64,000 nt of DNA from Emcibacter sp. Its GTDB lineage: Bacteria > Pseudomonadota > Alphaproteobacteria > Sphingomonadales > Emcibacteraceae. The stretch covers positions 1 through 64,000 of the forward strand of contig JAIOYI010000011.1 in assembly GCA_021741205.1 (NCBI GenBank), given 5' to 3'. The translations under genes and the position numbers were made by a program. This document shows positions 4,032-23,694 of the stretch, piece after piece (within the stretch, counting starts at the first letter, position 1; each line of letters opens with the position of its first letter). The notes beneath the pieces were generated by a model. It had not been told where the DNA came from, did not search any database, and was given only the letters and a program-made list of their open reading frames with translations.

Positions 4032-4169
4032 ATTCCTCTCCATTTTCTATAAAAGATTGATCTTTTCATGAAGATAACTTCACTTGAGATCATCGCTAGC
4101 TAAACAATAAATTTCTTCACTGTCTTCGTTTATTGAAAGGCTATAATAGCCTCTTTCCTGCTGCAAATT

Positions 4170-5789
4170 TTACCTGAGGGCAGCGTCCTCAATAATTCTC
4201 ACCATTGGGTCTAGATATTTTTCAAATTCTTTCCATCGTCCGATCGAGCGGGTATGAGCCTTTTCTCTTACCTGAACCGCGCTCGCTGTTGTTACCGCCG
4301 CCGTCTGTGCGTAAAAATTTACACAAGATTCTTGCCATTCAAGTCCTAAAAATTTGATAATTTTTCGCGCACTGTTTTCAAGGTCACTGGTGACATCCTC
4401 ATAGTTGATCTCCAACATGTGGCCCCCTAGAAAATCACGCCATTTTGCCATGAGACGGCGGTATCTTATATGATGTCTTGCCATTTCTCCCTGATTATAG
4501 GAGTGGAAATAGGCGTCAGCAAATAATTGTTTATAACTTGAAAAACAACTGTCCATAGGATCACGCATAATATGGATGATTTTTGCCTTGGGAAGTGCCG
4601 CCGCAATAAGAGGGGCATACATAAAATTAACCGGCAACTTGTCCACAAAATAAGGGGAATTAGGCCTCACCGCACGGGTTGTTTTCATATATATTTCGCC
4701 AATTTCTCGCATATTAACCGTGGCGGCCTTTTTGATAATTTCTGCCGTCATAGGTCTTGGGGAGCTCATTTTGGCGGCTCTTTTGATGGCCATGGCAAAT
4801 TGCTGTAATTCACCGGCTCCTGCCACCTCTGAATGAGCGGTGATGATGCGCTCAACAAGTGTCGTACCTGTTCTTGGCTGGCCGATGATAAAAATTGGCG
4901 AACTGTCATCATGTCCCACGTCCACTCGTGAAAACCATTCCTTATTTAAATTTTTCTCAAGACTATCAAATAGGGCAATTTCGCTGGCCTCATCATAATT
5001 GATTTGATGGCGTTTTGCTTGTGCACCCATTTCAAATGCCGCAAAAGCCTTATCCCAATGCTCCAAATCTTCCCATTCCTTGCCGATAGCATAATGTAAA
5101 AATGGAGCGTCCTGACGGTTTTGATCCATATCTTGCACCAGATCAGACATGATCGTTATATGATCCTCTGAGGTGGCCTTTTCGAGCCGTGCCAGTGACC
5201 AATGCGCCATAGCGCTATCTGGTTTTTCACTAAGAACAGATTGCAATGCATCCCGTGCCTGATCTATATGTCCAAGGAAAGTAAGCGCCTTGGCCCGACT
5301 TAAATCAAAGAATGCGGATTTCGATGTTTCTCGAGCCTTATCAAACCATTCAAGCGCTGTTTTCTGCTCCCCAAGCAGGCTATAGACATTTCCGATCACA
5401 TCCATAACCAAAGGATCGGTAGTATTGAAGGAGACGGCCTTTTTAAGCTGTTCTTCAGCGTCGTCATATTGAGCAAGCGACACAGAAGATCTTGCTAGCT
5501 GTGCCCATGCCGCTGCATGAGCGGGATCAATTTCAACCACATTTTTAAAAGCATGGCGTGCCATATCCCAATCCTTGGTTTCAATGGCAATCAAGCCAAC
5601 CAGAAAATGGGCTCCCTTAAATTGAGGATGATATTTGAGCACAAGCTGACAACAGGCTCCCGCCTCTTTGAAATCCCGCCGCAACAAAGCCTGATAGCCC
5701 CTTGCCGTGAATTTATCCACGTCTGCCTGTCCCATAACAGGTGTTTGGGAGCGAGGCCGATTATCTAATTTATTTATATCAACTGTCAT
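4170..5789 (-). CDS. TPR-repeat sulfotransferase
   Basis: Around 539 residues. The N-terminal half (about 25-260) is a run of tetratricopeptide-like helical pairs. The C-terminal half is a sulfotransferase domain: PIFIIGQPRTGTTLVERI is the 5'-phosphosulfate-binding loop of PAPS-dependent enzymes, and HIMRDPMDSCFSSY is the 3'-phosphate-binding segment. Such TPR-sulfotransferases are common next to TonB-dependent receptors in marine alphaproteobacteria, but their acceptors are not known. The frame can start from TTG at 5798; ATG at 5789 is preferred although no strong Shine-Dalgarno is visible. A TGTGATCACA palindrome lies 51 bases upstream, suggesting control by the regulator of the polyamine genes. 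Confidence 0.85.
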   Translation of the reverse strand: MTVDINKLDNRPRSQTPVMGQADVDKFTARGYQALLRRDFKEAGACCQLVLKYHPQFKGAHFLVGLIAIETKDWDMARHAFKNVVEIDPAHAAAWAQLARSSVSLAQYDDAEEQLKKAVSFNTTDPLVMDVIGNVYSLLGEQKTALEWFDKARETSKSAFFDLSRAKALTFLGHIDQARDALQSVLSEKPDSAMAHWSLARLEKATSEDHITIMSDLVQDMDQNRQDAPFLHYAIGKEWEDLEHWDKAFAAFEMGAQAKRHQINYDEASEIALFDSLEKNLNKEWFSRVDVGHDDSSPIFIIGQPRTGTTLVERIITAHSEVAGAGELQQFAMAIKRAAKMSSPRPMTAEIIKKAATVNMREIGEIYMKTTRAVRPNSPYFVDKLPVNFMYAPLIAAALPKAKIIHIMRDPMDSCFSSYKQLFADAYFHSYNQGEMARHHIRYRRLMAKWRDFLGGHMLEINYEDVTSDLENSARKIIKFLGLEWQESCVNFYAQTAAVTTASAVQVREKAHTRSIGRWKEFEKYLDPMVRIIEDAALR

Positions 5790-5839
5790 TGTTTTCAAAT
5801 ATAAAACATACCCTTTATTGATAATATAATTACTTCAAT

Positions 5840-5853
5840 AATGTGATCACATT
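5840..5853. promoter_or_regulatory. TGTGATCACA operator before the TPR-sulfotransferase gene
   Basis: AATGTGATCACATT is a perfect 14-bp palindrome in the 95-base gap between the amidohydrolase stop and the sulfotransferase start. On the minus strand a consensus TTGACA lies at 5869-5864, ten bases upstream of it, so a bound repressor would cover the core promoter. The core matches the sites at 14242, 14358, 15282 and 16335. Confidence 0.65.
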
Positions 5854-5884
5854 GTGGTTTAATTGTCAACTCAAAGCCTCTCTA

Positions 5885-7891
5885 TTATTCAGACTTATAG
5901 ACCAGAACCCCATCAAACCACGTTGAGATAACCTTTGTATCACGAATAGCTGTTGGGTTGCTGCTTGCAAGATCGATAATATTTTGGTTAAGAATAATAA
6001 AGTCGGCCTTTTTCCCGACCTCAAATGATCCCACAATTTCGGCCTGATGAAGCGCCTTTGCCCCATTAATGGTATAGGCATCTATGGCGTCCAAAATAGA
6101 AACTGTTTCATTCTCGTTATAAGCCATACCCGATGCGCCCGCTCTTGTTACGGCCTGTTCTATATTAAAAAAAGGTCGAGGATCGCGCATTTCAACTGGC
6201 GCATCTGAACCTGCAATCAAAATTGCCCCTGCCTGCATGGTGCTGCGGACGGGATAAGCCTGTGTATAGCTATAATATTCTTTTCTGTATAAATCATGGA
6301 TATCCTTTATTTCATCAATAAAAGGCATAACAGTTAGATCATATTCTGGAACTGGCGATATCCAAGCATAGGTATAGGCAAGATAAAGTCCCAAATCCCC
6401 TATTCTTTTTATGTCATCGGGATGAACAAATTGAATATGCGCCAGACTTTGAGGTTGTGGACTAGGACCATTTATTTTGCGGGCATTTTCCAACCCATCA
6501 AGGGCGGTTCGCACGGCTCTGTCCCCAATAACATGAAGATGAAGGGCATAGCCTTCCGCATGAAACCGCTTGATAAAGTCCATTTCAACATCATAGGGAC
6601 TTTCTAGGACGCCCGTACTAACGGCACATTGTTGCGGGAGAAATCCATTTTTTTCGATAAATTGGTTGATCGCTTTTTGGTCTTTAAGTAGGGACGGGTC
6701 AAATTTGCACGCCTCGCTCTCTGTGTTCACATATCCCTTAAGTTGTAATTCTTCAGTCTTAGAATTCCATTCAAAAATAGGTTGTTTATAGGGTGTTAAT
6801 TTTGCTGCATTGGGAAGACTTGGTGGTGTTGCAAGAGGGTTACCTTCGGATACGCCATCTATAAACATCTTCATGCTGTCCGCTTTGATATTTTTATAAG
6901 GTTCAAAATGTTCCCGTGTCTTGTAAGCGTCTCGTGATAAGACATCCCAATTCACTTTGTTATTGGCGTCTATATAATCAAGCGGGTTATAAAATTGAGA
7001 AAGGGTAATACGTAAGGGACGCTGTTGATCCTGAGCAAGCTTTTCGTATAAAGGGGCAATGGCTTTGCTAAAGGCCGCTTCCCGAATTGAGGTGATGCCC
7101 TCGGAATTTAAACGGGCGGGAATTTGGGCGGCATTTTCAACCATTTTGTTGATATCCCCGTCTAGCATGCTAATCTTAGCCATGGCGTTGCGTGCCTGCT
7201 CATTGACCATTCCATCAAGATTACCGTCACGATCCACACCTACCATAACGGCAAAATCTGAAAATTCTGTTTGAAGAGTTGCTTTACTCAGACCAATCGT
7301 TTCACCCGCTTTATTTTTTGCAAGGGCAAGGGCTGCCGAATTATAAGCCCCATGATGGCCATCATTTCCAGCAAGGGTTATGGGAATATCCTTTGAAACC
7401 GCATCAAGAGCCTCTCTTATGGTTTTAAATTGTTTTGTCGGCGTATTGCCCGTTGAGAAACCCCACTGTTCCCCCACAAGCCAAGCACCTTGTTCTGGTT
7501 TTAAACGCTTCATACAGTCTGACATGAATGTGGAAAGTTCATCCAAATTCATCGGGTTGCTTTCAAGATCACAGCGTTCAAATTCAATAATGCCAGATGC
7601 ATGAATATGATTGTCATGAAGCCCAGGTAGAATTAAATCATTCTCAAGACGGATAACCTCTGTTTCTTGTCCGATGAAGGTCTCTGCTCCTGTATCATCT
7701 CCCACATAAATAAAGGTGCCATCCTTAATGGCAAAGGCCGTCGCCATATCCCGATGATCATTGGCTGTATACACTTGCGCTTTTAAGATTACGGTATCGG
7801 CCTCGACAGATTTTTTATCATATTCTTTATCACAGGCCACAATAAACAAGGACATGACGCAACCGCCAAGAACAAGAAATTTTCTAACCAT
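5885..7891 (-). CDS. Lipoprotein metal-dependent amidohydrolase (YtcJ-like, amidohydrolase 3 family)
   Basis: 668 residues. The signal peptide ends in FIVAC, a lipobox that makes Cys20 the likely lipidated residue, so the enzyme should be anchored in the cell envelope facing the periplasm. The amidohydrolase fold is shown by GLHDNHIHASG (metal-binding HxH), HLHVIGDRAV and GSDAPVEMRDPRP with the late metal-binding Asp. Family members hydrolyse amides, often N-substituted amino acids or formamides; the substrate here is unknown. GAGGAG precedes the ATG at 7891. It is the last gene of the presumed polyamine operon, 38 bases after the membrane-protein gene, so hydrolysis of a polyamine conjugate is a reasonable guess only. 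Confidence 0.85.
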   Translation of the reverse strand: MVRKFLVLGGCVMSLFIVACDKEYDKKSVEADTVILKAQVYTANDHRDMATAFAIKDGTFIYVGDDTGAETFIGQETEVIRLENDLILPGLHDNHIHASGIIEFERCDLESNPMNLDELSTFMSDCMKRLKPEQGAWLVGEQWGFSTGNTPTKQFKTIREALDAVSKDIPITLAGNDGHHGAYNSAALALAKNKAGETIGLSKATLQTEFSDFAVMVGVDRDGNLDGMVNEQARNAMAKISMLDGDINKMVENAAQIPARLNSEGITSIREAAFSKAIAPLYEKLAQDQQRPLRITLSQFYNPLDYIDANNKVNWDVLSRDAYKTREHFEPYKNIKADSMKMFIDGVSEGNPLATPPSLPNAAKLTPYKQPIFEWNSKTEELQLKGYVNTESEACKFDPSLLKDQKAINQFIEKNGFLPQQCAVSTGVLESPYDVEMDFIKRFHAEGYALHLHVIGDRAVRTALDGLENARKINGPSPQPQSLAHIQFVHPDDIKRIGDLGLYLAYTYAWISPVPEYDLTVMPFIDEIKDIHDLYRKEYYSYTQAYPVRSTMQAGAILIAGSDAPVEMRDPRPFFNIEQAVTRAGASGMAYNENETVSILDAIDAYTINGAKALHQAEIVGSFEVGKKADFIILNQNIIDLASSNPTAIRDTKVISTWFDGVLVYKSE

Positions 7892-7929
7892 TATTTAAAC
7901 TCCTCAAAGATATGTTAAGTAGGAAAATG

Positions 7930-8784
7930 CTACGCATTTAATGCCTCTTCCTCTTGATCACTTGTTTCTTGTTGCCACTGGAACAAATTCATTTCAATAA
8001 AGGCAAAAGCGACAAGCCAAAGGAAAGCATCCCAAGCATCCAGAAAATCTCCTTGTTGCCCCCAATAGATAGCGCAAACCAGTAATGTTGAATATAAAAC
8101 CGCCTTAATGATCTTGCTGATAAAGAGCAAGGAACCACGGAGCAGTCCTCTCAGTTGAAACCAAACATCCACCTCTAATATAACAACGACACCAAGCCAC
8201 GTCGTCGCATTGATCACATCAACCCATGCCATGCCACGCGCTCTAAAAAGAGAGTCCGCATCGGCTATCAATGGCTGAGCATGCAGTTTGTAAAGTTGCA
8301 TTCCTTGGAGGCTAAGACAATTATCCTTGGTCAATAATTGATATTCATCTAAGTTGTCGACCCTTGCTATGATGCCATCCACGATGCTGCAAATATTCTC
8401 TGTCGGGAAGGGGGTCACACCATAAAAAAGCAAAAGTTTCAGAAAATAACCATAAAGGGCATAAACAATAAGGCTGTAACATAATGTTCTTACGGCCATC
8501 ATTACCCATTTTAATTTACTATCCTTCATTACCTCGTCGGAAATCACCCATGTTTCAAGCTCAAACAAAAGTAATAAAATAACCCAATTTAGGGTATCGC
8601 TGCTGGCGGTGAAGGCTTCTATAATTTGAGAAAAAGAAACCCCATTATGAAAGGTATGAGATGAAGCATCCCAGTCTTGTTGAAAAAATAAATAAGTATT
8701 CCACAACAGCAATAGGTAGATTGTATATTTAAACATATTATACAATCTTGCCCTTACGTCTGGGTTCTCAAGTATTTTTCGCAT
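7930..8784 (-). CDS. Six-helix membrane protein made of three two-helix repeats, function unknown
   Basis: 284 residues with six hydrophobic helices. I do not recognise a family. It contains a clear internal threefold repeat. Helices 2, 4 and 6 share W-x7-E-(L/V/M)-(E/D/N)-x-(W/F): W67..E75..W79, W196..E204..W208 and W256..E264..F268. Helices 1, 3 and 5 each start with (K/R)-x3-Y: K19/Y23, R99/Y103, K227/Y231. A loop of about 60 residues between helices 3 and 4 holds Cys132 and Cys156. Glutamates in membrane helices suggest binding of a cation or proton. The gene begins 3 bases after the aminotransferase stop and is therefore translationally coupled to the polyamine genes; a role in polyamine movement or sensing is inference. 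Confidence 0.75.
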   Translation of the reverse strand: MRKILENPDVRARLYNMFKYTIYLLLLWNTYLFFQQDWDASSHTFHNGVSFSQIIEAFTASSDTLNWVILLLLFELETWVISDEVMKDSKLKWVMMAVRTLCYSLIVYALYGYFLKLLLFYGVTPFPTENICSIVDGIIARVDNLDEYQLLTKDNCLSLQGMQLYKLHAQPLIADADSLFRARGMAWVDVINATTWLGVVVILEVDVWFQLRGLLRGSLLFISKIIKAVLYSTLLVCAIYWGQQGDFLDAWDAFLWLVAFAFIEMNLFQWQQETSDQEEEALNA

Positions 8785-8787
8785 GCT

Positions 8788-10170
8788 TTACATCAACCTC
8801 AAATCTTTGGCGGTGGCATCAAGACATATTTTGGCCTTATCAAAAAGTTCATCCATTTCAGATTTTGAAATCGTAAGTGGCGGACTGATAATCATTGATT
8901 GGCCGACGGCTCGCATAATCAGATCATTCTTAAAACAATAATCCCGACAGATCGTACCCGCATCCTCATCTCCTGAAAAGGTTGTGCGTGTGGCACGGTC
9001 TTTGACCAGTTGAATACCAGCCATCATACCCCGACCCCGAATTTCACCAACAATCGGATGATTTTCCATCAGATTTTGCAAGCCCGCATGCAGGTAAGGG
9101 CCTGATTCAGTGCGGACCTTTTCCACCAGATTATGGTCTTTTATATAATTGATATTGGCAATAGCCACCGCACAGGCAACGGGATGACCACTATAGGTAT
9201 AGCCATGATTAATTTCGCCACCACTGTTGAGAACTTCAAATATTTCATCTCTAATACCGACGGCAGAAATCGGAATATAGCCCGATGACATACCCTTGGC
9301 CATGGTGATAAAGTCTGGTTTAATACCAAATGTGTCAGAGCCAAACCAGTTACCTGTGCGGCCAAAGCCACAAATAACCTCATCTGCAATCAGTAATATA
9401 TTATATTTTTTGCAAATGCGCTGAATTTCGGGCCAGTATGTGCTTGGTGGGACAATAACACCGCCCGCACCCTGTATAGGCTCGCCGATGAAGGCTGCAA
9501 CCTTGTCTGCACCTATTTTCAGAATTTTTTCTTCCAATTCCTGCGCTCGTTTCAAGCCAAAGGCTTCGGGTGTCATGTCGCCCCCCTCAAGATACCAAAA
9601 GGGTTGGCCGATATGTTCAAATCCAGGTAACAGCGAAGATCCCTTGCCACCCATATTATGCATACCTTCCATACCACCCAAACTGGTCGCGGCAAGTGTG
9701 CTGCCGTGATAGGCATTATGACGGCTAATGATGGTTTGCTTTTCAGGTTTTCCCATGATGTCCCAATAATGTCGCACAAGGCGTATATTGGTGTCATTAG
9801 CCTCTGATCCAGATCCTGAGAAAAAGAAATGATTTATTCCCTTTGGTGTGATTTCGGATAACAGTCTCGATAATTCAATCTGGGGAGGGTGGCTCGTTTT
9901 GAAAAAGCTGTTGTAAAACGGCAATTGTTTCATCTGTTCATGAGCGGCCTCAATCAATTCTTTGCGGCCATAACCCACATTCATGCACCAAAGCCCTGCC
10001 ATGCCATCTAGAATTTTATGACCTTCAGAATCCCATATATAGCTGCCTTCTGCTCGTGTGATAATACGGACACCTTGTTTGCCTAAGGCATCTGGATCAG
10101 AAAAGGGATGTACATTATGGTCACGGTCCAATTCCTGCCACTGGGCGGTATCTCTATTAAAATTACGCAT
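8788..10170 (-). CDS. spuC: Class III aminotransferase, putrescine-pyruvate type
   Basis: 460-residue PLP-dependent transaminase of fold type I. It shows GLWCMNVGYGR near the N-terminus, the YHGST segment, IADEVICGFGRTG with the PLP-interacting Asp, and TMAKGMSSGYIP with the Schiff-base lysine. Close to SpuC-type enzymes, which move the amino group of putrescine (and often cadaverine, 1,3-diaminopropane or GABA) to pyruvate. A longer frame reaches 10272, but the ATG at 10170 has GGAG seven bases upstream and avoids overlap with the aldehyde dehydrogenase gene. It lies between that gene and the membrane protein in one operon. The symbol is by similarity and context. Confidence 0.8.
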   Translation of the reverse strand: MRNFNRDTAQWQELDRDHNVHPFSDPDALGKQGVRIITRAEGSYIWDSEGHKILDGMAGLWCMNVGYGRKELIEAAHEQMKQLPFYNSFFKTSHPPQIELSRLLSEITPKGINHFFFSGSGSEANDTNIRLVRHYWDIMGKPEKQTIISRHNAYHGSTLAATSLGGMEGMHNMGGKGSSLLPGFEHIGQPFWYLEGGDMTPEAFGLKRAQELEEKILKIGADKVAAFIGEPIQGAGGVIVPPSTYWPEIQRICKKYNILLIADEVICGFGRTGNWFGSDTFGIKPDFITMAKGMSSGYIPISAVGIRDEIFEVLNSGGEINHGYTYSGHPVACAVAIANINYIKDHNLVEKVRTESGPYLHAGLQNLMENHPIVGEIRGRGMMAGIQLVKDRATRTTFSGDEDAGTICRDYCFKNDLIMRAVGQSMIISPPLTISKSEMDELFDKAKICLDATAKDLRLM

Positions 10171-10201
10171 AAAAATCTCCAAACTTAAATTAAAAAAGGC
10201 C

Positions 10202-11689
10202 TTATATCTTGATCCATGTGGTCTTAAGATCCGTATATTTCTCAAGAGCATGCATAGATTTATCACGCCCAAAGCCAGATTGTTTAAAACCGCCGAAAGG
10301 AATGGTCATATCACCTGTTGGATCCCAACAATTCACCCAGACCGTACCCGCACGCAAAGCTCGGGACATACGATGTGCCTGTGAAATATCCTGACTCCAT
10401 ACCGCAGCGGCCAGACCATATATCGTGTCATTGGCTATTTTAATAGCGTCCGCCTCATCCTTAAAGGTCAGTACAGAAAGGACAGGGCCAAATATTTCTT
10501 CACGGGCAATGGTCATATCCGACGTCACATCATCAAAAATCGTGGGGTCAATGAAATAGCCTGCACGGTCTTTGCTTCTGCATCCACCCAATGTTAGAGT
10601 TGCACCTTCTTCATTGGCCTTATCAATGTATGAAAGTACCCTGTCCATATGCTGTTCTTCCACCAAGGCACCCATTGATGTTTCGGGATGCAGGGGGTCA
10701 CCCACCTTATGACTTGCACTCGCAAGAGCCAATTTTTCCATAAATTCTTGTTTAATTTCACGGTCAACCAACAGACGTGATCCTGCGGTACAAACCTCAC
10801 CCTGATTAAAGAAGATGGCACTTGCGGCGGCATTCGCTGCCTGATCCAGATCCAGACAATTTTTAGTGATAATGTGTGGTGATTTACCACCGCATTCTAA
10901 GGATACCCGCTTTAAATTGGATTGACCGCTATATTGCATGAAGAATTTACCCACTTGCGTTGATCCTGTGAAGGCAATCATATCCACATCCATATGAAGT
11001 CCAAGCGCCTGTCCTGCGGTTTCGCCAAATCCCGGCAAAACATTAAAAACACCGTCTGGAATGCCAGCTTCCGAGGCAAGTTCCGCAAGCCTTAGGACTG
11101 ATAATGGCGACTGTTCGGCGGGCTTTAAAACAATAGAATTGCCCGCGGCCAAGGCGGGTCCAATTTTCCAACACGCCATAAGAAGCGGAAAATTCCAAGG
11201 CACAACAATACCGATCACGCCTAAGGCCTCCCGGGTGACCAAGGCAAGAGCGCCTGGATCCGTGGGGGCAATTTCATCCATTAATTTATCAGCTGCCTCA
11301 CCGTACCAATGAATAGCACGTGCACAACCCGGAATATCAATGTTCATGGCATCGGAAATGGGTTTACCCATATCCAAACTTTCCAAAAGTGCGAGTTCCT
11401 CTCTATGGGATGTGATCAAATTGGCAAGACGCATCAAGCGTTTTCCACGCTGGGCAGGATGCATGTTTGACCAACGGCCATCTTCGAAGGCATCCCTTGC
11501 GGCTTTGACGGCAACATCAACGTCAGCCGCGTCACATTCCGCCACATCGGCAAATATTTGTGCCGTGGCGGGATTGATACTGTCAAATGTTTTACCCGAA
11601 AGGGAATTCACAAATTTACCGTTAATAAAGGCCTGATTACGGATTGAAAGGTTTGTGGCCTTTTCTGTCCAAAAATCATGTGTTCTCAT
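10202..11689 (-). CDS. puuC: Aldehyde dehydrogenase, gamma-glutamyl-aminobutyraldehyde / aminoaldehyde type
   Basis: 495-residue NAD(P)-dependent aldehyde dehydrogenase. PWNFPLLMACWKIGPALAAG, FTGSTQVGK, the catalytic Glu in SLECGGKSP and the nucleophilic Cys in FNQGEVCTAGSR are all present, and the C-terminal IPFGGFKQSGFGRD segment is typical. In this context it should oxidise gamma-glutamyl-gamma-aminobutyraldehyde, 4-aminobutanal or 3-aminopropanal. GGAG sits ten bases before the ATG at 11689. It lies 43 bases after agmatinase and 31 before the aminotransferase, so the three are almost certainly cotranscribed. Confidence 0.85.
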   Translation of the reverse strand: MRTHDFWTEKATNLSIRNQAFINGKFVNSLSGKTFDSINPATAQIFADVAECDAADVDVAVKAARDAFEDGRWSNMHPAQRGKRLMRLANLITSHREELALLESLDMGKPISDAMNIDIPGCARAIHWYGEAADKLMDEIAPTDPGALALVTREALGVIGIVVPWNFPLLMACWKIGPALAAGNSIVLKPAEQSPLSVLRLAELASEAGIPDGVFNVLPGFGETAGQALGLHMDVDMIAFTGSTQVGKFFMQYSGQSNLKRVSLECGGKSPHIITKNCLDLDQAANAAASAIFFNQGEVCTAGSRLLVDREIKQEFMEKLALASASHKVGDPLHPETSMGALVEEQHMDRVLSYIDKANEEGATLTLGGCRSKDRAGYFIDPTIFDDVTSDMTIAREEIFGPVLSVLTFKDEADAIKIANDTIYGLAAAVWSQDISQAHRMSRALRAGTVWVNCWDPTGDMTIPFGGFKQSGFGRDKSMHALEKYTDLKTTWIKI

Positions 11690-11732
11690 AGTCTGTTCTC
11701 CATTCTTTTCGCTTAAGACGGGATATAATGTT

Positions 11733-12662
11733 TCAATGACCTGTCAGCGTTTCTGAAATTAAATATAATATATCGCAGGCCAGTGTGGCTCCTGCTAATG
11801 CGGTTATCGATCCAATGGGATCGTATGCTGGAGCCACCTCGACGAGATCACCGCCTACCACCTGAAGTCCTTTTAGGCCTTTTAATATTGCTCGACCCTG
11901 CATGACGGTTGCTCCTCCCGGTACGGGCGTTCCTGTTCCCGGTGCAAAAGCCGGATCTAGAAAATCAATGTCAAAGCTTATATAGGCCTTCTTGCCCTGA
12001 ACTCTGTCACGTATCGCCGTCGATATTTCTTCGTTACTCATACCATCTATGGTAATGGCATCGAGAATTTGAAGACCAAAACTATTGGGGTTTGGTGTTC
12101 TGATGCCGATTTGAATTGAATGTTCCACATCAATCAGACCTTCCTTGATGGCATGATAAAACATCGTGCCGTGATTATAATCTTCATCAACCCATGTGTC
12201 GGTATGGGCATCAAAGTGAATAAGCGCCAAAGGACCGTGTTTTTTCACATGAGCCCGAAGCAGGGACAAAGAAATAAAATGATCCCCCCCAAGAGATAGC
12301 AAGGCGGTATCTTGGGAAAGAATTTCATTCGCCGTCCGTTCCAATTCTTTGGTCAGGCGTTCGGGATAGGCTGTAAAGTCACACACATCGCCGTAATCCA
12401 CCACTTTGTGGTGATCCGACAGATGATATTCCCAAGGCCAAACTCCCCATTCAAATTCGCCAACAAGTGACGATTGTTCCCTAATGGCTCTTGGACCCAA
12501 ACGGGCGCCTGAACGATTGGTTGTTCCAAGATCATAAGGCACCCCAAGTACGGCAATATCGACCTCTTTTAGGTCACGAGAATAGGGAAAGCGCAAAAAG
12601 CTCAATATGCCAGCATAGGCTGTTTCTCTATCATTCTCTGGATTGATTGCGCTCTCGGTCAT
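11733..12662 (-). CDS. speB: Agmatinase (ureohydrolase family)
   Basis: 309-residue arginase-fold enzyme that hydrolyses agmatine to putrescine and urea. The manganese-binding motifs are visible in order: GGDHFISL, HFDAHTDTW and SFDIDFLDPAFAPGTGTPVPGG. LGVPYDLGTTNRSGARLGPRAIR near the N-terminus is split here only for reference: LGVPYDLGTTNR then SGARLGPRAIR, both agmatinase hallmarks. Length is as expected. The gene feeds putrescine into the surrounding pathway. It lies 125 bases after puuA and has a weak ribosome-binding site, so it may depend on upstream translation or have its own promoter. A related guanidino-acid hydrolase cannot be fully excluded. Confidence 0.85.
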   Translation of the reverse strand: MTESAINPENDRETAYAGILSFLRFPYSRDLKEVDIAVLGVPYDLGTTNRSGARLGPRAIREQSSLVGEFEWGVWPWEYHLSDHHKVVDYGDVCDFTAYPERLTKELERTANEILSQDTALLSLGGDHFISLSLLRAHVKKHGPLALIHFDAHTDTWVDEDYNHGTMFYHAIKEGLIDVEHSIQIGIRTPNPNSFGLQILDAITIDGMSNEEISTAIRDRVQGKKAYISFDIDFLDPAFAPGTGTPVPGGATVMQGRAILKGLKGLQVVGGDLVEVAPAYDPIGSITALAGATLACDILYLISETLTGH

Positions 12663-12787
12663 TTTTGTGATTAATCTCTTTACTGTCTTTAAATTAGGTC
12701 TAGTTTAATGAACTAACGCCTTTTAAATGCGGAAGTTTGCCACTATTAATCCTTGGTTTATTAGGGACTTTCCCTTCAATTCACGCC

Positions 12788-14149
12788 CTAAACATTCATC
12801 AATAGATATCTGATCTCCCAAGGAGAAAGGACACTGAAATTTGCGGAATATTCCTGTTCCTTCACATCCACATAGGTGGTGATGAATTCATCGCTTAAAA
12901 TTTCGCGCAAAACAGAGGATTTATTAAAATTATTCAAACTTGACAAGAAATGATGGGGCAATTGATGGGTAGGCAGATCATAAGCCGATTCCATCAACGC
13001 ATCACTGGGGGTAAGGCCCTCTACCATGCCCAAATAACCAGCGAGTAATGATCCTGCAATAGCAAGATATGGATTCACGTCAGCCCCTGCAATGCGGTTT
13101 TCAATACGTCGTCCCGGCCTTCCACCTGATGGCACACGAAGCCCAACAGAACGATTTTCCCGTCCCCAATGCAGATTGGCCGGCGAACTCATGCCACTTC
13201 CGATGCGCAGGTAGCTGTTGGCATAAGGGGCAAGAAAGGGCATAAGATCGGGGATATATTTCTGAAGTCCTGCAATATGCGAATGAAATAAAGCCGTATC
13301 TTTCCCATCCTCATCGGCAAAAACATTAAGACCATCGGCAACACCCAAAATACTTTGATGAATATGCATGGCACTACCATATTCATCGGGATAGGGCTGT
13401 GCCATAAAACTTGCAAACATATCATGACGGATGGCAATCTGCTTCATCAGGCGTTTAAAATAAAAGGCCTGATCGGCTACATTAAGGGGCTCTCCATGAT
13501 AGACGTTAATCTCAAACTGGGCGGGGCCCGCTTCCTGTGTCAGGGTTTCCACCTGAATGCCCATAATTTCGCAATATTTATAGACATCATCAAATAAATC
13601 ACTGAATTCATCCAAGGCATCTAGGGACAAAACACCTTTATCCAAAGACATTTTTCCCGAACGACCCCGTGGCGGAATAGGAGGATTTTCGATATTATCC
13701 TGACGGCCAAGGAGAAAAAATTCAAATTCTGGCGCCACAATAGGTTGCCAACCCTTTGCCTCATAAAGGGATAAAACTTTTCTCAAAACTTGGCGGGGTG
13801 AGTTATTGGCAGGCTCGCCATTGTCCCTGACTACATCACACACGACACAAGCGGTCGGCGTTACGCACCACGGCAGAACCGTAAGCGTATCCAAATCAGG
13901 AACAAGGAAAAAATCTTCTTCCATATCGGTGATAAACTCATTGCCGATGAAATCACAATTGATGGTCAGGGCAAATAAAGATTCTGGCAGTCTATGATCA
14001 CGACTATTTAATCCAGCGACAAATTTACTGCGTGGCGTGGACTTGCCCCGGCTAATGCCTGCAAAATCGCTGACCATAATTTCCACATCTTGGATATTAT
14101 TAATGTCTAGCCATTGTTCAATTTCTGCTTTTTTCTTTTCATCTAACAT
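12788..14149 (-). CDS. puuA: Gamma-glutamylputrescine synthetase (glutamine synthetase family)
   Basis: 453 residues, type I glutamine synthetase fold, slightly shorter than GlnA. Seen are APEFEFFLL, the GPAQFEIN segment, the metal and ATP site around MHIHQS, and the arginine-rich NRSVGLRVPSGGRPGRRIENR. It lacks the C-terminal adenylylation region typical of GlnA. PuuA ligates glutamate to putrescine with ATP, starting the gamma-glutamylated route of putrescine degradation. The assignment over GlnA rests on this divergence plus the agmatinase, puuC and puuB neighbours. AAGGTG precedes the ATG at 14149. Two TGTGATCAC palindromes in the 271-base upstream gap suggest strict repression. Confidence 0.85.
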   Translation of the reverse strand: MLDEKKKAEIEQWLDINNIQDVEIMVSDFAGISRGKSTPRSKFVAGLNSRDHRLPESLFALTINCDFIGNEFITDMEEDFFLVPDLDTLTVLPWCVTPTACVVCDVVRDNGEPANNSPRQVLRKVLSLYEAKGWQPIVAPEFEFFLLGRQDNIENPPIPPRGRSGKMSLDKGVLSLDALDEFSDLFDDVYKYCEIMGIQVETLTQEAGPAQFEINVYHGEPLNVADQAFYFKRLMKQIAIRHDMFASFMAQPYPDEYGSAMHIHQSILGVADGLNVFADEDGKDTALFHSHIAGLQKYIPDLMPFLAPYANSYLRIGSGMSSPANLHWGRENRSVGLRVPSGGRPGRRIENRIAGADVNPYLAIAGSLLAGYLGMVEGLTPSDALMESAYDLPTHQLPHHFLSSLNNFNKSSVLREILSDEFITTYVDVKEQEYSANFSVLSPWEIRYLLMNV

Positions 14150-14241
14150 AAAACACCTTAATTATTTTGTTTTTGGGTCGTAGAATAATTTAAACGAGCC
14201 TCACGATTACAGCAGTATGCCCTATTTTGTCTCAAAAGGCT

Positions 14242-14265
14242 ATTAATTTGTGATCACAAATTAAT
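14242..14265. promoter_or_regulatory. 24-bp palindromic operator before puuA
   Basis: A perfect 24-bp palindrome centred on TGTGATCACA, with arms ATTAATTTGTGA and its exact complement. It lies 93 bases upstream of the puuA start. It is the longest of the five related sites in the window and therefore the best candidate for the strongest operator of the GntR/FCD regulator. Confidence 0.7.
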
Positions 14266-14357
14266 TCTTTTTTTGGCCACTCGGCAGATTCTTAAATATG
14301 TTATTAAAAACAAATAATTAACTTAAGTAAACTCACTCATTGTTATCATATTTTATA

Positions 14358-14371
14358 TTTGTGATCACGTT
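14358..14371. promoter_or_regulatory. Second TGTGATCAC operator before puuA
   Basis: TTTGTGATCACGTT is an imperfect copy of the palindrome, about 115 bp from the first, centre to centre. On the minus strand a TTGACA hexamer (14391-14386) lies upstream of it. Two sites roughly 11 helical turns apart before the same gene would allow looping, or the outer one may serve a different promoter. Confidence 0.55.
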
Positions 14372-14420
14372 GAGTTCAAATTATTTGTCAAATATTATTG
14401 TTTGCTCGGGCGATTATTTC

Positions 14421-15263
14421 TCAAACAATAGGCTGTTCAATAAAATCTAGCCAGTTGCTGATTTCCTGTAACCGACAACAAGAATCCGTAACGTCTTCCC
14501 CCATATTATAGTTTTGTCTTATTTCCATACTGTTTTCATCATTTTGAGCGATTTTGAAATCGGCAACCATTTTATTGACGGCCGCTTCATCAGGACAAAA
14601 TCCTTCTTCTATCATTCTAGTTTTATATTTTTGAATAAGAGAGGCTATATAATCAAGATCAAATTCAGGATGATATTGCACACCCCAAAAAATAGCGGAA
14701 CCATGTCTTATCTCCAGCGCCTGAACATGACTGATATCATTGCCAGACAAAACCGAAGCACCCTCTGGCAATCGCACCACATGGTCTAGATGAATGGCAA
14801 CAGCATCAAACTGTGTAGTCTTGTTTTTATAAAGTGGATGGGCGCGGCCCAGTGCTGTTAATTGAATATCACGGGCAATGCCGATTTCCCTACCTTTCGC
14901 ATTCTTTGCAACCTCTCCGCCCGCCGCCACAACCGCAACCTGAAGCCCCCAACAGCTGCCAAAAATTTTAACCTTTTGCTCAAAACAGCTTTTCATGAAA
15001 TCAATCTGGCGGGTAATTGCAGGATCTTGCTCATAAATATTCAAGGCTGATCCCGTCCAGATAATACCATCATATTGTTCAAGCTCGGAACCTTTGGGAA
15101 GCTTTGCCCCTTTGTCGGCGGGCATCACAACATCGCAAGATATTTTTGGTTTTAAAAAACGCAACGTTTTTATATAGAGATCGCTTTGGGTGCAGGAACC
15201 GTTAGCAACGGTTTGATCCCGTGCCTCTTTAGTGTTTCCTTCAACGACAAGTACCCTGCTCAT
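14421..15263 (-). CDS. Class I glutamine amidotransferase, candidate gamma-glutamyl-GABA hydrolase
   Basis: 280 residues. The class I amidotransferase triad is visible: nucleophile Cys104 in GSCWGLQV, and His198 and Glu200 in GVQYHPEFD. It stands alone with no synthetase domain. The sequence is nearer to GMP-synthase-type amidotransferase domains than to E. coli PuuD, but its place among puu genes makes gamma-glutamyl-GABA hydrolase a reasonable inferred role. A C-terminal extension of about 60 residues after the glutaminase core is unusual. The frame can be read from 15305, but the ATG at 15263 has an AGGGTGG sequence upstream and the longer version would run through the operator at 15282. 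Confidence 0.75.
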   Translation of the reverse strand: MSRVLVVEGNTKEARDQTVANGSCTQSDLYIKTLRFLKPKISCDVVMPADKGAKLPKGSELEQYDGIIWTGSALNIYEQDPAITRQIDFMKSCFEQKVKIFGSCWGLQVAVVAAGGEVAKNAKGREIGIARDIQLTALGRAHPLYKNKTTQFDAVAIHLDHVVRLPEGASVLSGNDISHVQALEIRHGSAIFWGVQYHPEFDLDYIASLIQKYKTRMIEEGFCPDEAAVNKMVADFKIAQNDENSMEIRQNYNMGEDVTDSCCRLQEISNWLDFIEQPIV

Positions 15264-15569
15264 AATATCCACCCTAAAAAAATTTGTGATCACAAATAAT
15301 CTCATTAAAATACAAATTATTCAAGCAAATTTATAAAATGTTCCCATAAATCGATATAAAGGCAAATTTTATGCGACCAAAATGCAGAATATACAGAATA
15401 TAGAAGTCCCAATATTTAAGGAAATAAAGAAATTTAAGTCGTTTATTGTATCATGGTATCTCTAAAAAAACCTTGACATAAATATAATTTTGAGGTCATT
15501 GACATAAGATACTTGGAAAAGCATTGTATCAATACGCCTGAATAATAAATTTATTTTGTTGGCAGAAAG
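15264..15569. other. Divergent intergenic region between the amidotransferase and gntR genes
   Basis: This AT-rich 306-base gap contains the operator at 15282-15297 near its left end. Nearer the regulator gene there are two TTGACA hexamers (15473-15478 and 15499-15504), 26 bases apart, either of which could be a -35 element; no convincing -10 at standard spacing was found for either. No ORF with a ribosome-binding site and no structured RNA was noticed. Confidence 0.5.
15282..15297. promoter_or_regulatory. TGTGATCACA operator before the amidotransferase gene
   Basis: ATTTGTGATCACAAAT is a perfect 16-bp palindrome located 19 bases upstream of the amidotransferase start codon. Bound protein here would block initiation or early elongation on the minus strand. 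The regulator gene starts about 280 bases away in the other direction. Confidence 0.65.
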
Positions 15570-15578
15570 GTGATTTTA

Positions 15579-16268
15579 TTGTCACACCATGATCTTAATA
15601 GAGATGAAGATAGCCCAGATCGTAAGATTGCTTATGAAACGGTTTATAAAAGTCTTTATGATTCTATTATTACGGGCCGTTTTAAACCGGGCAAACCCTT
15701 GACCATTCGTGGGCTCGCCGAAGAGATGAATGTAAGCCCCATGCCAGTGCGGGAATCGATTCGGCATCTTGTGGCCTTGGGCGCCCTAGAAATGCAGACG
15801 ACACGCCGTGTTGCAGTCTCTGAAATGACGGAAGAACGCTACCGAGAGATTGTTAAAGTTCGTATTCTTTTGGAGCCAGAAATTTCTGTGCGGGCCATGG
15901 CTCATTGTAATAATGCCCTGATCAATAAATTAAAACATATTGATAATGAAATAGAATCTGCCCTTGATAAGGGTGATGCCGACTGCTATAGCCTTAAAAA
16001 CTGGGAATTTCATTTCACCCTTTATCGGGCGGCAAATTGCCCGATTATGCTAAGGCTGATCGAAAGTATTTGGCTGCAATTTGGGCCATTTATGCGCATA
16101 ATCGTTGGTCGTCTTGGGACATCCTATATGGTTGATCAACATATAAATGCCATTACTGCTCTGAAAAATAAGGATGAAAAGGCTCTTCGTGAAGCCATTC
16201 GTCAGGATATCTATGATGGCATGGATCGTATCGGGGAAAAACTGCTTGGACATGCCTCTCCTAAATAA
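15579..16268 (+). CDS. GntR-family transcriptional regulator with FCD domain
   Basis: About 229 residues. The N-terminal winged helix (about 15-80) shows VYKSLYDSIITGRFKPG and the recognition part LAEEMNVSPMPVRESIRHL. The C-terminal all-helical FCD domain follows, with YREIVKVRILLEPEI and conserved histidines in WEFHFTLYRAA and DQHINAI that often bind metal in FadR/GntR proteins. TTG at 15579 is taken as the start because AAGGTG lies seven bases upstream; GTG at 15570 is possible. GntR/FCD dimers bind short palindromes, so this protein is the best candidate to bind the five TGTGATCAC sites around it, and to respond to a polyamine or a gamma-glutamyl intermediate. Confidence 0.85.
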   Translation: MSHHDLNRDEDSPDRKIAYETVYKSLYDSIITGRFKPGKPLTIRGLAEEMNVSPMPVRESIRHLVALGALEMQTTRRVAVSEMTEERYREIVKVRILLEPEISVRAMAHCNNALINKLKHIDNEIESALDKGDADCYSLKNWEFHFTLYRAANCPIMLRLIESIWLQFGPFMRIIVGRLGTSYMVDQHINAITALKNKDEKALREAIRQDIYDGMDRIGEKLLGHASPK

Positions 16269-16321
16269 CGCTGCTTTATGACAGAATTCCTTGTAATAAA
16301 TATTTTCTCATAAGAATAGCC

Positions 16322-16348
16322 TTGACAAAGCTAATTTGTGATCACAAA
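16322..16348 (+). promoter_or_regulatory. puuB promoter with embedded TGTGATCACA operator
   Basis: TTGACA at 16322-16327 is a consensus -35. The palindrome TTTGTGATCACAAA at 16335-16348 fills the spacer and overlaps the expected -10 position (CAAAAT at 16345-16350, weak). This geometry is typical of a repressor that excludes RNA polymerase. Confidence 0.65.
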
Positions 16349-16394
16349 ATAGACGCTCTATTATCACAAAAATATTCTGTTGAGGCATACCAAA

Positions 16395-17702
16395 ATGACC
16401 CACAACTACACAGAAAAAAAATCAGCGCCCGAACAGCATCCTGCATCATATTATTTTGCTTCGGCAAATAGGGTTCCAGAATTTCCCACACTTGACGGTG
16501 AGGTGCGTTGCGATGTCTGTATCATTGGCGGTGGCTTTACAGGGCTTTCTGCAGCGCTGCATTTGAAGGAACATGGCTATGACGTTATTTTGCTTGAAGC
16601 CCGCAAAATCGGATGGGGGGCTTCTGGCCGCAATGGTGGGCAATTGGGCTCTGGTCAACGTGTAGAACAGCTCGCCTTGGAAAAAAATTTAGGCAAAGAG
16701 ACTGCCCGTTCTTTGTGGGATTTGGCCGAAGAGTCCAAAAATCTTGTTAAAGGTCTTATTGCAAAGCATGACATACATTGTGATCTGAAACCCGGAATTT
16801 TGCACACAGCCCATAAAAAACAGTTTTTAAAAGACTATCAACATGAAGTCGAGAAACTCCAGAATGATTATAATTATGATCACATTCGGTATGTGGACGG
16901 CGATGAGTTATCGGATATGCTCGGCATGCGGAGCTATTACGGCGGTACGCTTGATATGGGAGCCGGTCATTTACACCCTTTGAATTTCGCCTTGGGTTTG
17001 GGGGAGGTCTGCGAAAAAATGGGGGTCAGGATATATGAAAATAGCCCTGTGACATCCTATGTGGAAAACGACAAAATAGTAATTCATACGCCCACAGGCA
17101 CCGTTACGGCGGATAAAATCATTTTGGGCTGTAATGGCTATCTTGGTTATCTGGAACCGAGGCTTGCTGGAAAGATTATGCCCATCAATAATTTTGTTGT
17201 GGCAACCGAACCCCTCGGCGAAGCTCGTGCTCGCCAAATTAACAGGGATGATGTGGCCATTGCGGATTCAAAATTTGTTATCAACTATTTCCGTATGTCA
17301 GCGGACCACCGCTTGTTATTTGGCGGTGGCGAAAATTATACACCAAGTTTTCCAAAGGATATTTCAAGCTTTGTCCGAAAATATATGCTGGAAATTTATC
17401 CGAGCCTAGAGGATGTCAAAATCGATTACGCTTGGGGTGGAGCGTTGGCAATCACCATGAACCGCATGCCCCATATCGGAAAGCTTGGGTCCAATATCTA
17501 TTATGGTCAGGGCTATTCTGGTCATGGTGTTGGTATGGCGACCCTGACGGGAAAAATATTGGCCGATGCCATTCATGGCAATCACCATAGTTTTGATGTC
17601 TTTGAAAAGGTTCCCACCTACACTTTCCCAGGCGGTAGCCATCTGCGCTGGCCTTTGATGGTATTGGGCATGCTTTATTACGCCATCAGAGACCGCATTT
17701 AG
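16395..17702 (+). CDS. puuB: FAD-dependent gamma-glutamylputrescine oxidase
   Basis: 435-residue D-amino-acid-oxidase-type flavoprotein. CIIGGGFTGLSAALHL is the dinucleotide-binding loop, followed by LLEARKIGWGASGRNGGQ, a hallmark of the PuuB/OrdL group, and a C-terminal YYGQGYSGHGVGMATLTGK that contacts FAD. PuuB oxidises gamma-glutamylputrescine to the aldehyde with release of ammonia and hydrogen peroxide. ATG at 16395 is chosen over an upstream in-frame TTG because TTGAGG lies at suitable distance. It is read in the same direction as the regulator gene and has its own operator-bearing promoter. Confidence 0.85.
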   Translation: MTHNYTEKKSAPEQHPASYYFASANRVPEFPTLDGEVRCDVCIIGGGFTGLSAALHLKEHGYDVILLEARKIGWGASGRNGGQLGSGQRVEQLALEKNLGKETARSLWDLAEESKNLVKGLIAKHDIHCDLKPGILHTAHKKQFLKDYQHEVEKLQNDYNYDHIRYVDGDELSDMLGMRSYYGGTLDMGAGHLHPLNFALGLGEVCEKMGVRIYENSPVTSYVENDKIVIHTPTGTVTADKIILGCNGYLGYLEPRLAGKIMPINNFVVATEPLGEARARQINRDDVAIADSKFVINYFRMSADHRLLFGGGENYTPSFPKDISSFVRKYMLEIYPSLEDVKIDYAWGGALAITMNRMPHIGKLGSNIYYGQGYSGHGVGMATLTGKILADAIHGNHHSFDVFEKVPTYTFPGGSHLRWPLMVLGMLYYAIRDRI

Positions 17703-21104: not shown

Positions 21105-21653
21105 TTAAAAACTCGGCGGTGTGCAGGCGCTCACCAATTCACAAACATCATGTCCGATATTTTTAAATTTATGGGGCTTATGGCTTTCAAAATAATAGGC
21201 ATCGCCGGGGCCTAAAATCTTCTTTTGATCGCCGACCTCGATCATTAAGCGACCCTTTAAAACAAGTCCGCATTCTTCTCCCATATGGGTTAAGGCTGTT
21301 TTGCCCGTACTTGCCCCCGGTTGATATTTTTCATGCAAAAGCTGAATGGCGTTATTTTTAAGCGTGGCACCGACCTGACGAAAAGAAACCCCTTTATCAC
21401 CGATTTCGATCAACTCTTCTGCGGCAAAGAATATCTGTTCCTTTGTTCGATCGCCTTCGTCAAAAAATTCTGACAGGCTGATGGGGATACCATCCAAAAT
21501 ACGTTTTAAGGCACCAACGGTCGGATTAATGTGGTTTGATTCAATCTGGGAAATGCTTGCATTGGCGACACCTGTACGTTTGGCGAGTTCCCGCTGGGAA
21601 AGATTACGCTCGGTGCGAATTACTTTAAGCCTTTTTCCAATGTTTAATGTCAT
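21105..21653 (-). CDS. puuR: XRE-family regulator with cupin domain, PuuR-like
   Basis: 182 residues. The N-terminal helix-turn-helix (about 5-60) reads LKVIRTERNLSQRELAKRTG then ASISQIES. The C-terminal cupin (about 105-180) has LTHMGEECGLVLKG and PGDAYYFESHKPHKF. This architecture and length match PuuR, the putrescine-responsive repressor of E. coli, and many related regulators of amine and amino-acid catabolism. GAGG precedes the ATG at 21653. It is upstream of, and in line with, the transaminase-spdH operon. This makes it the second regulator in the region, and its targets are probably this operon and its own promoter. Symbol by similarity only. Confidence 0.75.
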   Translation of the reverse strand: MTLNIGKRLKVIRTERNLSQRELAKRTGVANASISQIESNHINPTVGALKRILDGIPISLSEFFDEGDRTKEQIFFAAEELIEIGDKGVSFRQVGATLKNNAIQLLHEKYQPGASTGKTALTHMGEECGLVLKGRLMIEVGDQKKILGPGDAYYFESHKPHKFKNIGHDVCELVSACTPPSF

Positions 21654-22626: not shown

Positions 22627-23694
22627 TTATTTCTCTTCTTTATAAATGTGGGTCACGGGTTTTTCATGACCCTTGATATAGCCTCGATACATACCTTCGG
22701 TGTTAAAGGTCATGGAGATATTGCCCTGTGTATCCACAGCAATAATACCACCTTCGCCCCCCATTTTAACAAGCTTATTCATAACAATTTCATCTGCGGC
22801 CTGCTGTAACGTTAGTCCTTTATATTCCATAAGGGCACAGACACTGTGGGCCACGGCCGCCCGAATGAAATATTCCCCATGTCCCGTTGCCGACAAAGCA
22901 CAGCTGTGGTTATTCGCATAGGTTCCCGCCCCAATCACGGGGGAATCGCCGATCCTGTTCCAGCGTTTATTGGTCATGCCTCCTGTTGAGGTACCTGCGG
23001 CGAGATTGCCGTGCATGTCAAGTGCCGCCGCCCCCACGGTGCCAAATTTTTGATCTGGATCTTCTGGGTCATAACCAAGGCTTGCAATTTTATCGGATTG
23101 CTTGTCGCCATCATGATCAAGCAAAATTTTATCTTCTTCTAAGGCATTTTGCAGCTGTTGCCAGCGTTATTCTGTCCAAAAATATTCAGGCTCGACAAGT
23201 TCTATATGCTGTAATTTGGCAAATTCTTCGGCGCCTGCGCCAAAAAGCATCACATGCTTGGAATTTCTCATGACTTCTCGGGCCAGATTGATGGGATTTT
23301 TGACATGGGTGACACCCGCTACCGCACCCGCATTTAAATCACGACCATCCATGATCGAGGCATCCATTTCGTTATGCCCCTCATGATTAAAGACCGCCCC
23401 TTTGCCCGCATTGAACAGGGGAGAGTTTTCCATAACATTAATGGTGGCCGCCACCGCATCCACGGCTTCTCCTCCTTGATCCAAAACAAGCTGTCCCGCC
23501 AAAAGAGCTTCTTCTAGTTTGGCGCGAATAAGGCTTTCCCGTTCTGGCGTCATGTTCTTCTTTAAAATTGTGCCCGCTCCACCATGAATAACAAGGGCAT
23601 AATGTTTATTATTATCTGCATGGGCATTGGCTCTTATAGCTGCCGTCATCACGCCTATTCCTCCGATCAATAAAATCACCAGAAATCTTATCAT
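22627..23694 (-). pseudogene. Isoaspartyl peptidase/L-asparaginase interrupted by one in-frame TAA
   Basis: The frame encodes a plant-type (N-terminal nucleophile) isoaspartyl aminopeptidase of 355 codons. It has a signal peptide ending near ANAHA, HGGAGTI, and FNAGKGAVF with NEMDASIMDG. In-frame codon 176 (23169-23167) is TAA, within TE-stop-RWQQLQ, after which the same frame continues through [10 protein letters not shown], where Thr219 is the expected autoproteolytic nucleophile, to [11 protein letters not shown] and the normal C-terminus. The stop is in the linker between the alpha and beta subunits. The downstream part could restart at a TTG (23124) but has no clear ribosome-binding site. 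A pseudogene, a sequencing error, or two separate chains are the options. Confidence 0.8.

Follow-up and report, generated by a model that had tools for sequence, protein, structure and literature searches.

In Escherichia coli and Pseudomonas aeruginosa, the genes for gamma-glutamylation of polyamines are controlled by local XRE-cupin repressors, PuuR and PauR, that act at palindromic operators, and the part of PMC7901475 consulted gives PauR several scattered targets. Members of the FadR (FCD) subfamily of GntR regulators combine a winged helix-turn-helix (wHTH) with an FCD domain and have an operator near their own gene, with boxes of the form TKGT/ACMA in the sections of PMC4494728 consulted. 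Here we analyzed 64,000 nucleotides of an Emcibacter sp. genome (assembly GCA_021741205.1, contig JAIOYI010000011.1, positions 1 to 64,000; the whole stretch is called the window), in which a polyamine-like gene cluster contains a GntR/FCD regulator, GntR1, and five sites built on the palindromic core TGTGATCACA, whose TTGT/ACAA boxes fit that form. Comparison with related genomes indicates that GntR1 very probably binds these palindromes. We hold with high confidence the wider reading that GntR1 binds TGTGATCACA and represses both the polyamine genes and a unit of TPR-sulfotransferase and TonB-dependent receptor, that a polyamine-type inducer releases it, and that the sulfotransferase acts on or for the receptor; within this reading, we infer the repression, the inducer, and the substrates of receptor and sulfotransferase. 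The regulator-operator association, cluster membership, and conservation of the receptor/sulfotransferase unit are documented by comparison of sequences between genomes.

Palindromic sites in the window

A preliminary description of this DNA had listed perfect palindromes at 5840 (14 bp), 14242 (24 bp), 15282 (16 bp), and 16335 (14 bp) and an imperfect one at 14358, and reading the window confirmed each position and length. The sites, to which no strand is assigned, and the two candidate regulators are as follows.

5840..5853, putative operator O1, AATGTGATCACATT, a perfect 14-bp palindrome
14242..14265, putative operator O2, a perfect 24-bp palindrome, with the glutamine-synthetase-like gene beginning about 92 bp downstream
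14358..14371, putative operator O3, TTTGTGATCACGTT, imperfect and one-sided, with symmetry limited to the central 8 bp
15282..15297, putative operator O4, a perfect palindrome of 16 bp; the likely ATG (15263) of the class-I glutamine amidotransferase (GATase) gene is 18 bp downstream
16335..16348, putative operator O5, a perfect 14-bp palindrome in the promoter of the DAO-family oxidase gene
16357..16370, degenerate second operator, TCTATTATCACAAA, 22 bp from O5
15570..16268, plus strand, GntR1, GntR/FCD regulator with Pfam domains, the proposed DNA-binding protein
21105..21653, minus strand, PuuR-like XRE-cupin regulator of the same cluster, tested as a rival binder

O1 has the same TGTGATCACA core as the sites elsewhere, but its four outer bases are unlike those of TTTGTGATCACAAA. 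A and T predominate in the operator flanks, and AATGTGATCACATT is often seen beside GntR homologues elsewhere; the variant at 5840 is therefore an ordinary member of the set. It precedes the TPR-sulfotransferase/TonB unit by 50 bp, counted to the likely ATG at 5789. O3 is 111 bp from O2, core to core, and about 208 bp upstream of the glutamine-synthetase-like gene, within the spacer of the minus-strand hexamers TTGAAC and TAAAAT. The TTGACA hexamers described earlier were found near O1 (minus strand, 5869-5864), O3 (minus strand, 14391-14386), and O5 (plus strand, 16322-16327). The claim that all sites lie in promoter regions fits O5, which overlaps a sigma-70-like promoter (10/12, with TTGACA at 16322) in part of its spacer and in four bases of its CAAAAT hexamer. 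It is less secure for O4, which falls inside the longest open reading frame (ORF) of the GATase gene; this site precedes the coding region only with a translation start at ATG 15263, after AGGGTGG. Promoter-like matches in the region showed no excess over shuffled sequences (31 vs 28.6). At the position equivalent to O5 and its degenerate neighbor, the relative G010 has two good operators 21 bp apart (L113:16278 and 16299). An imperfect core also occurs at 16875, inside the DAO gene.

Palindrome searches covered the whole 2.57-Mb host genome. With at most one mismatch, TTTGTGATCACAAA occurs at three places genome-wide, all three in the window, and the reversed motif at none. The reversed motif contains CTAG, a sequence rare in many bacteria, which makes it a weak control, so 319 palindromes of equal composition were used as controls in the comparison of loci below. 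Exact TGTGATCACA occurs at five places, four in the window and one on contig C15, whereas 2.9 per genome and 0.012 per 10.5 kb would be expected from the window's base composition. The many unrelated copies that the preliminary description had named as evidence against a regulon are thus not what the genome holds. Counts at up to three mismatches within the window alone are weakly above chance (10 vs 5.1 expected; 5 of 100 shuffles as high), and it is the concentration of the exact core here, not these mismatch-tolerant counts, that supports the motif. The C15 copy (G000:C15:135941) overlaps a 207-amino-acid ORF without a Pfam match, has a flank score of 12.5 compared with 23.0-25.6 for the four exact window sites, and is probably a chance occurrence.

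The core accompanies GntR1-type regulators across genomes

GntR1 contains a wHTH domain (PF00392, 61.8 bits vs a cut-off of 27) and an FCD effector domain (PF07729, 63.6 bits vs 24.3), and is the sole match to its own sequence in the host genome at E ≤ 1e-10. Among 80 relatives, with orthologues defined by at least 65% identity, WTTGTGATCACAAW was present in 13 of the 13 genomes with a GntR1 orthologue and in 12 of the 67 without (Fisher 1.7e-8, ignoring phylogeny).

We then scanned named genomes with a GntR alignment and took the best 80 of 189 confirmed relatives; 13 loci (L171-L180, L217, L241, and L249) were dropped because their contigs match contigs of the 80-relative set in length. The 67 loci kept, at 37-64% identity, come from Hyphomicrobium, Pseudovibrio, Stappia, Sphingomonas, Parvularculaceae, and others, and some are nearly identical to one another. 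In 60 of these loci the exact core is found no more than 600 bp from the GntR gene, and all 67 have it there at no more than one mismatch. The next-best 10-bp palindrome reached 5 loci, and the control palindromes a mean of 1.6 and a maximum of 14. Core density across the 67 loci dropped from 91 in 78.5 kb beside the gene to 21 in the 744 kb at distances above 3 kb. These counts support the earlier proposal that the neighboring GntR/FCD protein is the binder. The half-sites do look like those of CRP (TGTGA/TCACA), although CRP sites have a 6-bp spacer and none is present here. Chance and a CRP/FNR-type origin are both contradicted by the genome-wide counts and by conservation beside GntR genes at the 67 loci, and we rejected them as extremely improbable.

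Genes found in the 67 stretches include aminotransferases (37), ligases (33), oxidases (26), agmatinases (12), TPR-sulfotransferases (8), and TonB receptors (7); loci of the Hyphomicrobiales type can instead have an ATP-binding cassette (ABC) transporter with a binding protein near the regulator (L193; binding protein in L200). The genome of the relative G024 carries additional copies of the 14-mer. Those on C79, C142, and C199 have uvrC, a gene of peptidase family S49, and cell-wall genes as neighbors and look like chance occurrences; a further copy is on C85. Two others, on C136 and C172 (L144:7891 and L146:6704), adjoin homologues of the second FAD oxidase of the cluster, outside the main cluster, and may be additional regulator targets in that genome.

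Operators track the paralogue GntR2

Related clusters contain a paralogue, GntR2 (about 34% identity), that shares the recognition-helix residues MPxRE with GntR1. In 16 of the 21 genomes searched for GntR2, the divergent promoter region of the ligase/oxidase/sulfotransferase/TonB cluster could be read. The other five were set aside: G483 (operator present and GntR2 not found, but the contig ends), G485 (no site seen in the roughly 195 bp upstream before its contig ends), G064 and G070 (polyamine genes absent), and G028 (GntR1). Operators were found in all eight genomes with GntR2 (G041, G072, G474, G472, G462, G068, G464, and G470, the last with two one-mismatch sites). Among the eight without it, G466 has an operator and G477, G056, G479, G076, G468, G074, and G060 have none (Fisher 0.0014, or 0.0023 with G483 counted as regulator-less; both ignore phylogeny). 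In the divergent promoter of the sulfotransferase/TonB polyamine cluster, pairs of operators stand 145-156 bp apart (L306, L307, L308, L310, L312, L319, L323, and L324), a spacing compatible with DNA looping.

The PuuR-like regulator does not track the motif

The window also encodes a homologue of PuuR (151.6 bits, under the cut-off of 211) in the same cluster, and the palindromes could be its operators, as in the PuuR and PauR regulons, where gamma-glutamylation genes are repressed and PauR binds palindromes (PMC7901475, as far as consulted). We consider this very unlikely. At E ≤ 1e-10, PuuR homologues are missing from six of the 13 motif-bearing GntR1 genomes (G021, G045, G050, G055, G059, and G063), and of seven genomes with PuuR (at least 46% identity) and no GntR1, three have the motif, two of which hold GntR2. 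Upstream of PuuR homologues, the core at no more than one mismatch was seen in 1 of 13 regions (13 of 16 strong matches, with G004, G034, and G037 left out and some starts perhaps overcalled). The motif thus neither marks the promoter of the XRE-cupin regulator nor co-occurs with it across genomes. In the same 13 regions, TGTTTA-N6-TAAACA appeared exactly in four and at no more than one mismatch in six (e.g., L115, L116, L167, and L168), and is perhaps the operator of the XRE-cupin regulator; the upstream region of the window PuuR homologue contains neither this sequence nor the core.

Genes of the cluster

From left to right, the cluster comprises genes for a TonB receptor, TPR-sulfotransferase, amidohydrolase, membrane protein, class-III aminotransferase, aldehyde dehydrogenase-like protein, agmatinase, ligase, class-I amidotransferase, GntR/FCD regulator, DAO-family oxidase, second FAD oxidase, aminotransferase-like protein, and PuuR-like XRE-cupin regulator. 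The families of the aldehyde dehydrogenase-like and last aminotransferase-like genes were assigned by eye from sequence. The genes that bear on the regulon are as follows.

1728..4043, minus strand, TonB-dependent receptor of the polyamine-cluster clade, with the Tyr-rich loop TGNEDVMCQAYYYYSCSEVFAYYDWGDFT at residues 396-424
4170..5798, minus strand, TPR-sulfotransferase, with a C-terminal domain related to protein-tyrosine sulfotransferases
7930..8784, minus strand, conserved membrane protein without a Pfam match
8788..10272, minus strand, class-III aminotransferase from the family scan, which we take to be SpuC-like
10202..11689, minus strand, aldehyde dehydrogenase-like (puuC-like) protein, with homologues in related clusters
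11733..12662, minus strand, agmatinase, exceeding two NCBIfam cut-offs (TIGR01230, 204.8 vs 174.3 bits; NF002564, 386.6 vs 302 bits)
12788..14149, minus strand, glutamine-synthetase-like (puuA-like) ligase from the family scan
14421..15305, minus strand, class-I GATase, likely start at 15263
16380..17702, plus strand, FAD-dependent DAO-family oxidase (puuB-like), likely start at 16395

The preliminary description had named puuA as a target. The gene is indeed glutamine-synthetase-like, but the name is loose: the ligase, a related enzyme, scores 170.7 bits, far under the cut-off of 650 for gamma-glutamylputrescine synthetase (NF045547, the PuuA equivalog). We therefore call the pathway polyamine-like. 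The membrane protein is kept in 15 further clusters at 29-66% identity, with invariant Trp, Asp/Glu, and Cys residues, and probably belongs to the pathway or its transport. Beyond the listed genes, two adjacent minus-strand ORFs at 22627-23694 resemble, by eye, the halves of one isoaspartyl peptidase/asparaginase-like protein, which suggests a broken gene or a sequence error.

The sulfotransferase and TonB receptor form a unit

The TPR-sulfotransferase matches PF13469 (167.4 bits) and contains PRTGTT at 308 and RDPMDS at 412, motifs that bind 3'-phosphoadenosine 5'-phosphosulfate. Its domain matches TPST1 (5wrj, E 2.7e-6) and TPST2 (3ap1, E 3.9e-4). Of the 396 genomes of the order, 31 have close homologues (E ≤ 1e-120) and 34 have the matching receptor clade, with 30 shared; in these searches, scoring was limited to the top two or three candidates of each genome, and the G055 receptor, missed there, was seen directly. 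Polyamine-type genes are neighbors in 29 of the 31 (all but G064 and G070; in G063 the sole such neighbor is a dehydrogenase), and a TonB gene adjoins in 30, the exception being G485, where the locus is split between contigs. An operator at no more than one mismatch governs the sulfotransferase unit or TonB gene in 19 of the 31, and three could not be judged (G028, G476, and G485). The earlier inclusion of the TPR-sulfotransferase in the regulon is upheld by this neighborhood, with the correction that it comes as a unit with the receptor. The receptor, and not the chemistry of polyamines as such, is probably what the sulfonation serves. A class-wide search of 385 genomes at E ≤ 1e-120 found this genome alone, presumably because other families were drawn, and a scan of viral contigs with the sulfotransferase found nothing.

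The pairing extends beyond this clade. A 40-genome search gave 60 matches, and of the 30 cut out as loci, 5 belong to the clade and 25 do not. A TonB neighbor is present at 15 of these 25 distant sulfotransferases (at most 37% identity), although the five genomes counted have just 26-93 TonB plug domains. The sulfotransferase/TonB pair is thus a recurrent unit, of which the window sulfotransferase, judged from these comparisons, is a polyamine-specific version. O1 might instead serve the TonB receptor, with the sulfotransferase a passenger unlinked to polyamines. In G045, G050, G055, G059, and G063 the best operator is between the two genes, upstream of TonB, and in G010 and G017 the receptor is in the cluster without a sulfotransferase. 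We consider a passenger unlikely, given that in G004, G019, G026, G041, and others the sulfotransferase is inside the operon, downstream of the operator, and that the pair recurs outside the clade.

Within the receptor tree, the window receptor (unit 1728-5798) groups with family f5 receptors (G483, G072, and G474; support 82/92) rather than with the congener G010, which has the unpaired receptor type within the same cluster. Exchange or transfer of the unit is possible.

As for its cargo, the shared control suggests that the receptor is produced for the uptake of polyamines and is perhaps chemically modified for it. Metal chelates are frequent cargo of TonB receptors, polyamine-based siderophores reportedly exist, and the nearest solved relative is the pesticin receptor, a siderophore receptor. 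The import of something other than free polyamines, such as a siderophore built on a polyamine or a conjugate that later has its amine part broken down, is conceivable, though we doubt it. Among the named cluster genes, none for siderophores or iron uptake was noticed, with most unnamed ORFs not scanned. The listings from a literature search combining polyamine and TonB held no report of TonB-dependent uptake of free polyamines.

A tyrosine-rich loop in the paired receptors

Paired receptors of the clade have a Tyr-rich, cysteine-flanked loop between barrel strands, e.g., NEDVMCQAYYYYSCSEVFAYYDWGDF. All 36 paired receptors read (30 of the 31 genomes, with G468 omitted for an internal stop, plus six named loci) have 5-15 tyrosines in the loop (median 7). 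Four receptors without a nearby sulfotransferase (G010, G017, G037, and G713) have 2, 1, 1, and 4, and carry 7-10 acidic residues there compared with a median of 5 (range 2-9) in paired receptors; G010 and G017 hold distant sulfotransferases elsewhere. The other ends of the flanking strands are joined by short turns (by eye), and the stretch after the loop aligns with the pesticin receptor barrel, so the loop should face outward.

On a first set of receptors beside distant sulfotransferases we chose as a feature any 20-residue window that contains a cysteine and four or more tyrosines (10/18 vs 0/18 controls; 20 regions of each kind fetched). Since it was picked after viewing that set, we used a hold-out, in which the counts were 5/12 and 1/20 (P = 0.018), 8 of 20 sulfotransferase regions having no full adjacent receptor. 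Grouped into 50%-identity clusters with both sets pooled and two mixed clusters omitted, the counts were 4/12 and 1/25 (P = 0.03). Control receptors came from the top of the plug-domain listing and were non-random.

We propose that the sulfotransferase sulfates its partner receptor. More generally, many TPR-sulfotransferases might O-sulfate tyrosines in a cysteine-flanked surface loop of the partner TonB receptor; here, a sulfotyrosine patch would be an anionic site for polycationic polyamines, and sister receptors without the enzyme would use Asp/Glu charge. This is a tentative idea that we think likelier wrong than right. The four unpaired receptors form one clade in the tree (100/99), a single evolutionary contrast, which leaves the Mann-Whitney P of 0.001 little force. 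Many receptors paired with distant sulfotransferases lack the Tyr/Cys feature, and receptors paired with a sulfotransferase are not told apart from the others by overall tyrosine content (4.6 vs 4.1%, P = 0.19). If the idea is true, tyrosine sulfation would act on a bacterial nutrient receptor co-produced with the genes that consume the nutrient. The TPR-sulfotransferase/TonB pairing thus yields a testable idea, the sulfation of receptor tyrosines.

Proposed regulation

In our model, a GntR1 dimer binds TGTGATCACA and, without inducer, would occupy, or lie next to, the promoters for the ligase operon (O2 and O3), GATase (O4), DAO oxidase (O5), and sulfotransferase/TonB unit (O1), repressing them. 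A polyamine or gamma-glutamyl intermediate would release GntR1, so that catabolic enzymes and a dedicated outer-membrane receptor are made together, and the sulfotransferase would act on or for its partner receptor. Judging from operator position and family habit, repression of all five promoters by GntR1 is most likely. Position alone does not fix the sign; O2 and O3 lie well upstream of the ligase gene and the widely spaced pairs in relatives fit looping or activation. That GntR1 activates, or that its effect differs by operator, is nevertheless quite improbable: FCD regulators are mostly repressors, O5 covers promoter hexamers, and O4 adjoins a ribosome-binding site, which is why repression is favored.

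Several observations weigh against this model. Eight of 27 tabulated GntR genes in relatives have no core within 600 bp (L125, L127, L128, L129, L131, L156, L160, and L165; three GntR1, three GntR2, and two remote); the first six have a core elsewhere in their own cluster, and the two remote ones (L160 and L165) have none. In G074, a GntR1-type homologue (45%) on another contig has cores beside it, yet none occurs at the sulfotransferase cluster, and no operator was found in 9 of the 31 sulfotransferase genomes. Operators occur without GntR1 in G004 (69% complete), though with GntR2, and without detectable GntR2 in G466 and G483 (80% complete, contig ends). The GT/AC spacing of 4 nucleotides (TTGT-GATC-ACAA) departs from the 2-3 of the FadR subfamily, a spacing that is typical and not strictly defining, with exceptions listed in the consulted part of PMC4494728.

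Comparison with known systems

Ranked results of literature searches held no report of this operator or of a sulfotransferase/TonB pairing, and those of searches on PuuR and GntR polyamine regulons no report of such a regulon. Neither a PuuR consensus nor one for TGTGATCACA is given in the portions of PMC12565409 and PMC9951944 consulted. With these findings, a widespread GntR/FCD subgroup, mostly from Alphaproteobacteria, gains an operator and a predicted role in polyamine catabolism, which makes the regulon readable in genomes from Kordiimonadales to Hyphomicrobiales, and a clade of TonB receptors is tied to polyamine genes.

Among FCD regulators of solved structure, the McbR-type protein 4p9f is the best sequence relative of GntR1 (E 2.4e-29); to our knowledge, neither McbR nor other FCD regulators of known structure have a link to polyamines. 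Within the FadR subfamily, GntR1 differs in its 4-nucleotide GT-AC gap, where 3 is typical and 2 occurs in several groups (PMC4494728, as far as consulted). The sulfotransferase domain is like animal TPST1/2 by sequence, but the window protein differs in its N-terminal TPR domain and TonB partner. RaxST/RaxX is reportedly a bacterial case of tyrosine sulfation. In contrast to the PuuR and PauR systems, the likely regulator here is a GntR/FCD protein with the operator TGTGATCACA, the motif does not follow the PuuR homologue that is also present, and the predicted regulon adds an outer-membrane receptor and a sulfotransferase.

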